From the NCBI GenBank assembly GCA_004298555.1, contig SCQM01000199.1, forward strand, positions 1-43,868: a stretch of 43,868 nucleotides of DNA. The letters are read 5' to 3'. Position 1 is the stretch's first letter. Each line of letters starts with the position of its first letter. This document shows, piece by piece, positions 121 to 4,147 of the stretch. Position numbers and translations under genes: made by a program. This stretch comes from Actinomycetota bacterium (GTDB lineage: Bacteria > Actinomycetota > Acidimicrobiia > Acidimicrobiales > Acidimicrobiaceae). The notes under the pieces are model-generated. The model was not told the DNA's origin, ran no database searches, and was given only the letters and a program-made list of their open reading frames with translations.

Positions 121-2904
121 CTAACTGCAGCCGCTGGTTGTGCCACATGAAGAGCACACGTAGCAAGATCCAGCCCGCTGCATCTGATTTCCGCACTGAT
201 AACAATACGGAGCATCCTTGGAGGTTGGCCCGGGTATTAACTTCATCTCTGAGGTTTGAGGTGCCGCCTGTACGGGAGGCTCTAAGTGCACATAATCCGA
301 AGCCCCGTCATCACCAGCGAACAACGTCAGCTGGGTCCTCTCTTCTGTGGTAGCTATGCCCAGTTCCGTGCGCTCCTCTAGCGTCAGGTAGTCAATGGCC
401 AGCCTACGAAAGATATAGTCGACCAACGAAGATGCGATACGCAGATCAGGATCATCGGTCATCCCGGCGGGCTCAAATCTCATGTTGGTGTACTTCTTGA
501 CATACGTGGAAAGAGGAACACCGTGCTGGAGTCCGAGGCTCACTGAGATTGAAAATGCATCCATGATTCCGGCAAGTGTCGATCCCTGCTTGGAAACCTT
601 CATGAATACCTCACCCGGACGACCGTCTTCATATTGTCCGACGGTGACGTAGCCTTCGCAGTCTGCGACGCGAAATGCAAAGGTGTAGGACTTGCGCCTA
701 CGCGGCAAGCGCTCACGAACGGGACGCTTTACGATCACCGTTTGAGAGTGAAGGGCATTCTCGAGTTCTGCAATCTTGGAAGTCAGCTCAGACTTTGGAT
801 CATTGGCAGCGGCGGATTCCTTACCTTTCGTGGTCAGTGGCTGGGCGACCTTACAATTGTCCCTGTAAATAGCTACTGCCTTGACACCTAATCTCCACGC
901 TTCGATGAACAATTGCTCAATCTCTTCGACCGTTGCATCTTCGGGCATGTTCACGGTCTTGGAGATTGCACCAGAGATAAACGGCTGAACCGCCGCCATC
1001 ATTTTGACATGGCCACGGTAGTGAATAGTGTTATCCCCCATGGAGCAGGCAAAAACTGGCAAATGACTGGTATCCAGGTCCGGAGAATCGACTATGGTCT
1101 TGTGGCTGTCAACGTACGAAATAATCGAGTCAATCTGCGATTCACTGTAACCCAACCTTTCCAGAGCCCGCGGAACGGTCTGATTCACTATCGACATGGT
1201 CCCGCCACCCACAAGCTTCTTGGATTTCACAAGACCAAGATCTGGCTCGACACCCGTAGTGTCGCAGTCCATCAACAACCCAATAGTGCCCGTTGGAGCC
1301 AATACAGACGCTTGCGAGTTGCGCACCCCGTATGTCGATCCATTCTCGATAGCTTCATCCCAGGACTGCTTGGCTGCATCGAGCAGTTCGGGGTCCACCA
1401 AAGACTGGTCAATCTTATCAGCAGCATCCCTATGCATCCTCAGCACATTCAACATGGGCTCGCGGTTATCATAAAAACCTGCGAATGGTCCTAGACGGCT
1501 AGCCATTCTGGCAGAGGTGGCATACGCAGTTCCAGTCAAAAGTGCAGTAACCGAGCCTGCCACCGCCCTTCCGCCATCAGAGTCATACGGGAGGCCCAGC
1601 GCCATCAACATGGCACCCAGGTTCGCATAGCCAATTCCAAGCTCGCGGAATTTTCGGGATGTGTCACCAATCTTCCCCGTAGGGTAATCTGCGTTACCAA
1701 CCAAAATATCCTGTGCGGTAAATACCGCTTCAACCGTCACCTTGAATCCTTCAATATCGAATGAGTCATCCGGTTTGAGGAATTTGATGAGGTTGAGGCT
1801 TGCAAGGTTACATGCTGAATTGTCAAGGTGCACATACTCTGAACAGGGATTCGAAGCAGTAATCCGGCCGGTATTCGGTGCAGTGTGCCACTTGTTGATT
1901 GTGGTGTCGTACTGAAGGCCTGGATCGGCACAATCCCATGCCGCTTCGGATATCTGCCTCATTAGTTCCTGGGCCTTTAGAGTCTTCACGACGGAGCCGT
2001 CAACAACAGCCTTGAGCTCCCATTCAAGATCGTTTACAACGGCTTCCATGAACTCGTCGGTCACCCTTACCGAGTTGTTAGCATTCTGGTACTGTATCGA
2101 AAAACTATCTTTGCCATCCAGGCTCATGTCGAAACCCGCATCACGCAGCGCACGCGCCTTGCGCTCCTCGACACTCTTGCACCAAATGAACTCTTCGATG
2201 TCTGGATGATCTGCGTTCAAGATAACCATCTTGGCAGCACGCCTGGTTTTCCCTCCAGACTTGATCGTTCCGGCCGAGGCATCGGCGCCACGCATGAAGC
2301 TAACTGGTCCTGAAGCCGTACCGCCACCCTTCAAAAGCTCCTGAGAGGAACGGATCTTGGAAAGATTGATGCCCGATCCGGAACCGCCCTTGAAGATAGT
2401 TCCTTCTTCGACATACCAGTTCAAAATTGAATTCATGTCATCATCCACCGCAAGGATAAAACATGCACTGGCCTGCTGCGGCACCCCCTGCACTCCGATA
2501 TTGAACCAAACCGGAGAGTTAAATGCAGCGTGCTGATGAATGATTGCATACTTGAGCTCATCCGAGAAAATCTCGATCTCCTCGTCGTCGGCGAAGTATC
2601 CATCCTTGATTCCCCAAGCAGTTATGGTATCTACCACCCTGTCAACAACCTGCTTCAAAGACCATTCGCGCTCTGAAGTCCCTAAAGTGCCGCGAAAATA
2701 CTTCTGAGCCAGAATGTTGGTAGCATTTACACTCCACGTGGATGGCACCTCCACCTGAAGCTGCTCGAACGCCACCGAACCATCCAGATAATTGGTTATC
2801 CGGGCATCTCGGCGCTCCCAATCAACCGTGTCATAGGGATGAACACCCCGTGAAGTAAAAAAGCGCCTAAGTCCAATTCCTGACCTCTGAGGAGCTATTG
2901 CCAT
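121..2904 (-). CDS. nrdJ: Adenosylcobalamin-dependent ribonucleotide reductase (class II)
   Basis: Reduces ribonucleotides to deoxyribonucleotides, using coenzyme B12 to generate the thiyl radical; it works without oxygen dependence in the cytoplasm. The 927-aa protein shows the RNR barrel landmarks: Cys148 in the ACFILAVDD segment, the catalytic NPCSE motif with Cys354, and the downstream HLDNSACNLASLN segment. A TSCPD-type domain precedes a cysteine-rich tail of repeated CxxC motifs (CYQCG, CYVCSSCG) that would re-reduce the active site. I chose the ATG at 2904, preceded by GGGAAGG at suitable spacing, over an in-frame start 14 codons upstream without one. It stands alone, with its own terminator and a putative NrdR-controlled promoter. 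No class I or III reductase is in the window. Confidence 0.96.
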   Translation of the reverse strand: MAIAPQRSGIGLRRFFTSRGVHPYDTVDWERRDARITNYLDGSVAFEQLQVEVPSTWSVNATNILAQKYFRGTLGTSEREWSLKQVVDRVVDTITAWGIKDGYFADDEEIEIFSDELKYAIIHQHAAFNSPVWFNIGVQGVPQQASACFILAVDDDMNSILNWYVEEGTIFKGGSGSGINLSKIRSSQELLKGGGTASGPVSFMRGADASAGTIKSGGKTRRAAKMVILNADHPDIEEFIWCKSVEERKARALRDAGFDMSLDGKDSFSIQYQNANNSVRVTDEFMEAVVNDLEWELKAVVDGSVVKTLKAQELMRQISEAAWDCADPGLQYDTTINKWHTAPNTGRITASNPCSEYVHLDNSACNLASLNLIKFLKPDDSFDIEGFKVTVEAVFTAQDILVGNADYPTGKIGDTSRKFRELGIGYANLGAMLMALGLPYDSDGGRAVAGSVTALLTGTAYATSARMASRLGPFAGFYDNREPMLNVLRMHRDAADKIDQSLVDPELLDAAKQSWDEAIENGSTYGVRNSQASVLAPTGTIGLLMDCDTTGVEPDLGLVKSKKLVGGGTMSIVNQTVPRALERLGYSESQIDSIISYVDSHKTIVDSPDLDTSHLPVFACSMGDNTIHYRGHVKMMAAVQPFISGAISKTVNMPEDATVEEIEQLFIEAWRLGVKAVAIYRDNCKVAQPLTTKGKESAAANDPKSELTSKIAELENALHSQTVIVKRPVRERLPRRRKSYTFAFRVADCEGYVTVGQYEDGRPGEVFMKVSKQGSTLAGIMDAFSISVSLGLQHGVPLSTYVKKYTNMRFEPAGMTDDPDLRIASSLVDYIFRRLAIDYLTLEERTELGIATTEERTQLTLFAGDDGASDYVHLEPPVQAAPQTSEMKLIPGPTSKDAPYCYQCGNQMQRAGSCYVCSSCGTTSGCS

Positions 2905-3115
2905 ATCTAAGACCTTCCCAATCAATCTCATCCGACAGATAAACAATCAATTAAAACTCAATAAAGATTTTTAAGAACAACTCGAGCTAGTCACGAGATC
3001 AACCGTGTGATCGCAAAAACTTTATTTAGCCCGATTCCAATCGATTTCCCAAATCCGCCAATCTGCCCTTATGGCGTTAATGATACACCTTGGCTATGAC
3101 AATGTCACGGAAAAA

Positions 3116-3162
3116 ACACTATATGTTGATAGCTTTGCATGACTCAACACAACATCATGTGT
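3116..3162 (-). promoter_or_regulatory. nrdJ promoter overlapped by two NrdR-box-like palindromes
   Basis: Two 16-bp elements are visible: ACACTATATGTTGATA at 3116-3131 and ACACAACATCATGTGT at 3147-3162. Their starts are 31 bp apart, three helical turns, which is the arrangement known for NrdR operators. On the minus strand a -35-like TTGAGT (3142-3147) and a -10-like TATAGT (3118-3123) are 18 bp apart, so the boxes cover the promoter. The predicted start near 3111 would leave a leader of about 200 nt before nrdJ. No cobalamin-riboswitch core was recognised in 2905-3115. I see nothing else clear in 3163-3307. Confidence 0.65.
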
Positions 3163-3307
3163 AATTTCATCACTGTAGTTAGGGCCTGTCAAGAACCGAA
3201 GCCCAACTTTTTCGCCGTAAATTCAAAAGGAGCCAACTAGCTGGGAATACTTCCAACAAAACTTTTGCGTAGCAAACATTTCTCCTATTGGTTAGCGTAT
3301 TAGCATT

Positions 3308-4147
3308 GTGCTCCAGAGATTTTTCAACATAACCCCCAGCAATAATGATCTGATTCGAAGCGGACTGCCCCAGAATCTTTCCGAGTCCTTTAGAACACTT
3401 GCTGACGAACAGGGGGAAATACCACCAGACACAATACTTGTGCTTATTCCGGCCTTCAACGAAGAAGGTTCAATTCAAGATGTCATCTCAAAGGTTCCTG
3501 CAACTGCATGCGGCTTAAACACACGGGTACTGGTAATCAACGACGGATCGACCGATAACACTTCGCGAATCGCCAAATCCGCCGGTGCGGCGGTTCTCGA
3601 AATGCCCGAAAACTCAGGGCAGGGTGCAGCGCTGAAAGCTGGTTATCTGTTTTGCCTTGCAAACAATAATAAATTCGCCGTTGTGGTGGACGGGGACGGG
3701 CAATGGGATCCAAGCGACATGAACGAACTTGTCGCGCCAATAGTCAATGGAGATGCTGATTTCGCGCAGGGTTCCAGACGTCTTGGCTCAACCGAAAACC
3801 GGGACCATATCCGGAATTTAGGTGTGAAGTTCTTTACCCTCCTGGTTTCGCAAATCACCCGGACCCGGGTTGGCGATACCTCATCAGGATATCGCGCATA
3901 TAGAAGCGAGGTGCTCGGGAAGGTGCGGCTAAGCCAGAGTCAGTATCAATCGTCAGAAATTCTTATCTCCGCCATCTGCAGCGGAGCAAGACTATACGAA
4001 CATCCCGTAAAAATGTCGGTCAGAACCGCCGGGGTATCAAAGAAAGCGCCCAACTGGAAGTATGGAATCTACTATTTCCGTGCGGTAATCCAAACAGCAA
4101 TCCGTGACCGGTACCTCTCCAGGCTCTTTGACAATGAAAGCGCATAG
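3308..4147 (+). CDS. GT2 family glycosyltransferase, polyprenyl-phosphate sugar transferase type
   Basis: A 279-aa GT-A fold enzyme that probably moves a sugar from a nucleotide sugar to a polyprenyl phosphate at the inner face of the membrane. The nucleotide-binding start ILVLIPAFNEEGSI lies near residue 45, followed by VLVINDGSTDNT and the metal-binding DGDGQWDP, then GDTSSGYRAYR in the acceptor half. No C-terminal membrane anchor is seen. The start is GTG with no obvious ribosome binding site, so a leaderless start or a slightly later one is possible. The next gene, a YfhO-like membrane protein, overlaps its 3' end, so the two are probably co-transcribed and may act together in envelope glycan assembly. 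The sugar cannot be told from sequence. Confidence 0.85.
   Translation: MLQRFFNITPSNNDLIRSGLPQNLSESFRTLADEQGEIPPDTILVLIPAFNEEGSIQDVISKVPATACGLNTRVLVINDGSTDNTSRIAKSAGAAVLEMPENSGQGAALKAGYLFCLANNNKFAVVVDGDGQWDPSDMNELVAPIVNGDADFAQGSRRLGSTENRDHIRNLGVKFFTLLVSQITRTRVGDTSSGYRAYRSEVLGKVRLSQSQYQSSEILISAICSGARLYEHPVKMSVRTAGVSKKAPNWKYGIYYFRAVIQTAIRDRYLSRLFDNESA

Follow-up and report, generated by a model that had tools for sequence, protein, structure and literature searches.

Two 16-bp palindromes lying upstream of nrdJ in the window, the 43,868-nucleotide stretch of DNA that we analyzed, very probably constitute the NrdR operator of this gene, from which NrdR would repress a promoter at 3192-3164. By sequence comparison the site is an ordinary NrdR operator of an already known type, to which the present analysis adds a corrected promoter and a lead in the promoter spacer. 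The genome, placed in the Acidimicrobiaceae by named relatives, belongs to an uncultured lineage to which this comparative evidence extends the NrdR circuit. The only ribonucleotide reductase (RNR) detected in it depends on B12, and a single repressor may therefore set the whole dNTP supply of the lineage; the conserved spacer element offers a lead towards a second layer of control.

nrdJ, its NrdR boxes and the genome's NrdR

The genes and boxes that the argument concerns are as follows:

121..2904, minus strand: nrdJ, adenosylcobalamin-dependent (class II) ribonucleotide reductase (NCBIfam NF005122, 1435 bits against a cut-off of 859)
3116..3131, minus strand: nrdJ-proximal NrdR box, TATCAACATATAGTGT; 12/16 to consensus, 13/16 positions invariant, one outer half-site divergent genus-wide
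3147..3162, minus strand: promoter-distal NrdR box, ACACATGATGTTGTGT; 13/16 to consensus, 14/16 positions invariant in six same-genus genomes
3308..4147, plus strand: glycosyltransferase gene, divergent from nrdJ and its neighbour throughout the genus; an unlikely NrdR target

The nrdJ reading frame opens with an ATG at 2904, preceded by GGGAAGG at a distance of seven bases, and was the sole match to an RNR large subunit in its own genome, a 92%-complete MAG. In several relatives (G003:C174, G014:C1, G018:C2 and G050:C17) the match to nrdJ is interrupted at about query residue 352-355 inside a single, longer open frame, as an intein at a shared site would produce; the nrdJ of the window has no intein.

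Direct reading of the plus strand gave ACACTATATGTTGATA for the proximal box and ACACAACATCATGTGT for the distal box, and so confirmed the two 16-bp palindromes, with starts 31 bp apart, that a preceding sequence-only reading of this DNA had described. We scored the boxes by matches to the NrdR consensus acaCwAtATaTwGtgT over its 16 positions. The score of the pair, 25/32, was the best in the window at spacings of 31, 32 or 42 bp, the runner-up elsewhere in the window reaching 20, and among 200 windows simulated with a first-order Markov model (spacing 31 or 32 bp) the highest pair score was 23. In the genome as a whole, a relaxed pattern for the pair, allowing three mismatches at most, matched once, at the nrdJ operator, while a reversed control pattern had no match across 60 genomes, where the real pair matches were mostly the pairs already found upstream of nrdJ. 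Pattern searches of the window's own genome recovered no pair spaced by 32 bp, no further boxes paired at 31 or 32 bp, and no partners near nine single-box sites.

The strongest evidence for an operator is comparative footprinting. Across the six same-genus genomes the intervening 15 bp held no invariant position (0/15), against the 14 and 13 of 16 in the distal and proximal boxes, and in the same alignment the leader from 3079 to 2940 was invariant at 19 of 140 positions. The C/G pairs that correspond to those critical in Streptomyces coelicolor, 3119/3128 in the proximal box and 3150/3159 in the distal box, were all invariant in the genus. The departure of the proximal box in its last half-site, which the sequence-only reading had also pointed out, is real: the box ends in GATA in the window, and on the plus strand every aligned genus member has GATA, GATT or GATC where the consensus has GTGT. 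Because this half-site retains the critical G (3128) and deviates genus-wide, it looks like a maintained feature and a stable trait of the genus, not decay.

Conservation extends across the order. In 27 of 30 loci, a pair spaced by 30-33 bp upstream of nrdJ outscored at least 95% of same-region shuffles. When spacings from 17 to 60 were scanned at 79 further nrdJ loci, the best pair was spaced by 31 bp in 37 loci, by 32 bp in 17 and by 42 bp in 11 (65 of 79 together), with best-pair scores of 17-27 versus 14-21 for a reversed motif whose spacings were scattered, although these locus counts are not independent because many loci are related. One same-genus assembly, G008, carries two nrdJ copies (C26 and C232), each with an NrdR pair and the promoter module described below, reflecting either duplication or a mixed assembly.

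That the palindromes are chance AT-rich repeats or the site of another regulator is extremely improbable. Single boxes alone are indeed unconvincing, since at three mismatches they occur at 9 sites in the genome compared with 16 for the reversed control, but the paired arrangement is unique in the genome, has zero control matches, and has been conserved in front of RNR genes, among them a relative's class I nrdA. A chance origin of the pair was ruled out by the simulations and the control patterns.

Scans for nrdR and for other paired boxes, both suggested in the sequence-only reading, showed that no pair other than that at nrdJ is spaced by 31 or 32 bp and that the genome does encode NrdR. 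The gene lies on another contig (C24, L001:1501-1974), where it adjoins a LexA-like ORF; no clear box pair was found upstream of nrdR itself. Its product matched TIGR00244 end to end (177 bits), aligned to solved NrdR structures in the PDB at about 1e-38, and has both the zinc ribbon, with four cysteines, and the ATP cone, along with D15, R17, RRRR at 26-29, and R37. Residue 12 is K, where S. coelicolor NrdR has R12. In S. coelicolor, D15 and R17 are the specificity residues, and the GC pairs 9/18 and 40/49 of the operator are critical (PMC9110341). With nrdR present, its specificity residues intact, the key C/G pairs invariant, and the pair conserved at nrdJ, the NrdR operator architecture previously proposed for this site was borne out.

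The nrdJ core promoter

Four promoter elements, all on the minus strand, need to be distinguished:

3164..3192, minus strand: best-supported nrdJ core promoter, unique in its own genome at 0 mismatches
3177-3172, minus strand: alternative -10 TACAGT, which would shift the start by about 8 bp
3118..3147, minus strand: earlier-proposed promoter TTGAGT-N18-TATAGT, present with an unconserved -35; unlikely as main promoter
3080..3108, minus strand: possible second promoter, specific to the genus, with GTGACA-N17-TATCAT lying downstream of the boxes; its -10 keeps TAnnnT in the genus

The nrdJ promoter probably lies just upstream of the boxes, at 3192-3164. Here TTGACA-N17-TGAAAT adjoins the distal box, ending 1 bp from it, and comprises a -35 TTGACA (3192-3187), the spacer string AACTAC (3180-3175), and an extended -10 TG-A-TGAAAT (3172-3164). 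Its -35 is invariant at 6/6 positions in the genus, and an order-wide form, TTGAC-N17/18-TGTAAT, was present upstream of nrdJ at 64 of 78 loci, whereas 78 control stretches drawn from coding sequence contained no copy. Throughout the order the distal box begins 1-5 bp past this module. Transcription is predicted to start at about 3157 via TGAAAT, or at 3165 via the alternative -10, the exact position being uncertain because TGAAAT does not have the usual A as its second letter. Since a start is expected about 7 bp downstream of the -10, and thus inside the distal box, we infer that both boxes would extend over the start site and the early transcript.

Two other promoters have to be weighed against this one, in a region where a scan found 2 promoter-like sites versus 1.1 expected in shuffles. 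The sequence-only reading had laid the boxes over TTGAGT-N18-TATAGT, so that NrdR would cover both the -35 and the -10. Both hexamers are there, TATAGT or TATTGT is kept inside the proximal box across the genus, and one NrdR box overlaps the -10 in Pseudomonas aeruginosa (PMC4409342); but TATAGT is simply part of the proximal box, and the TTGAGT -35 is invariant at only 1/6 positions in the genus, while TTGACA-N17-TG(A/T)AAT is conserved across the order and TTGAC-N17/18-TGTAAT is far better conserved there than TTGAGT-N18-TATAGT. For this reason the assignment of the main promoter to these hexamers is probably wrong, and we regard an operator acting on it as highly unlikely. Somewhat less remote, yet still unlikely, is the possibility that nrdJ is transcribed mainly from GTGACA-N17-TATCAT at 3108-3080, with NrdR acting from upstream or on a second promoter only. 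This site is promoter-like, its -10 keeps TAnnnT in 6/6 genus members, and in Propionibacterium (Cutibacterium) acnes the boxes overlap only one of two nrdRJ promoters (PMC3848588). Against it, the GTGACA -35 is only 3/6 invariant in the genus, and the promoter was not found outside the genus, where the boxes often lie nearer the start codon.

Control of nrdJ by a B12 riboswitch was considered separately and rejected, as the leader holds no cobalamin aptamer: a search of 2700-3600 for a cobalamin riboswitch or other known RNA returned only a sub-threshold snoRNA match, and Rfam gave no match in the nrdJ leaders of 20 loci.

A conserved spacer element shared with nrdA and recA promoters

The spacer of a plain promoter need not be conserved. 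At nrdJ, the element AAYTACNNTG within the spacer is unusually well conserved, recurs at class I nrdA, and resembles the recA promoters of the order. The order-wide module can be written TTGAC-N5/6-TGTAAYTACNNTGCTGTAAT; it occurs at nrdJ and class I nrdA, with one exact copy of its core at recA, in the relative G010. Thirty module loci that we read, drawn from a search of 248 Acidimicrobiales genomes, comprised 23 before nrdJ, three before class I nrdA, one before recA, and three seemingly unrelated. In the position table of the module, the -35, the TG, and most -10 letters were fixed by the search pattern, so that only the free positions are informative; among these, 39 of 40 non-redundant loci had G at position 2 of the -10, and AAYTAC in the spacer was conserved without being part of the pattern.

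In many members of the order, the recA promoter has a LexA box with a similar AAYTACNNTGNTGTNAT string after it. No string of this kind was found in the recA promoter of the window's genome (L262) or its genus; there, in the window's genome, the LexA box CGAACATATGTTCG is followed by TATAAT. The recA loci of the order (L235-L264) carry actinobacterial LexA boxes, CGAAC-N4-GTTCG, which in many members outside the genus sit directly before AAYTACNNT. At recA this string may simply be a TACNNT -10, and the shared string would fit a second regulator as well as a shared type of promoter. Conceivably, though the suggestion is tentative and in our judgement doubtful, the nrdJ core promoter of Acidimicrobiales embeds, in addition to the NrdR boxes, an order-specific second control element (TGTAAYTACNNTGCTGTAAT). 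Class I nrdA carries it too, and recA has a similar form next to the LexA box; such an element would link the transcription of RNR genes to that of recA by way of some activator or a specialised RNA polymerase holoenzyme. The mycobacterial PafBC/RecA-NDp motif was considered as the identity of the module, but the two do not seem to match. WhiA, whose motif is GACAC, binds upstream of Streptomyces nrdR; many relatives read TTGACAC, which contains GACAC, whereas the window reads TTGACAG.

In the relative G033, a member of the family, a class I nrdA-type gene (contig C24, L201 150-403) is preceded by an NrdR box pair and then a cobalamin riboswitch (RF00174, 99 bits, L201 192-403). This leader would combine dNTP and B12 control, similar to the nrdAB arrangement of P. 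acnes (PMC3848588).

Proposed regulation and comparison with known systems

By analogy with work on S. coelicolor (PMC9110341), NrdR binding, repression, and nucleotide sensing at nrdJ probably proceed as follows. A rise in dATP would load the NrdR tetramer with dATP and ATP (or ADP), and the tetramer would occupy both boxes together, with one zinc-ribbon pair per box, three helical turns apart. The bound repressor would kink the DNA and block transcription on the minus strand from the promoter at 3192-3164, with the boxes lying over the nrdJ start and the first ~45 bases of its transcript. A drop in dATP would turn NrdR into a non-binding ATP dodecamer, and nrdJ would be transcribed.

Control of nrdJ by NrdR is known experimentally in Streptomyces (PMC9110341) and Pseudomonas (PMC4409342). 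The closest parallel is the nrdRJ operator of S. coelicolor, for which the complex of the NrdR tetramer with DNA is known: it too has a class II RNR gene with two boxes offset by 31 bp, the critical C/G at box positions 4 and 13, identical spacings of the critical pairs (9 within a box and 31 between boxes), and an NrdR with D15, R17, and RRRR (PMC9110341). Unlike in S. coelicolor, nrdR lies outside the nrdJ operon, beside the LexA-like gene on another contig, and one outer half-site is missing from the proximal box. The nrdJ promoter of P. aeruginosa also has two NrdR boxes, through which NrdR represses nrdJ aerobically, box mutation relieving the repression; there a box overlaps the -10, whereas here the better-supported promoter is upstream of both boxes (PMC4409342). 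P. acnes, likewise an actinobacterium, has a box pair over the promoter of its nrdJ operon, nrdRJ, with start sites that are mapped there and predicted here; its nrdRJ genes have two promoters, and it possesses class I and III RNRs as well, whereas the genome studied here yielded no RNR large subunit other than nrdJ (PMC3848588).
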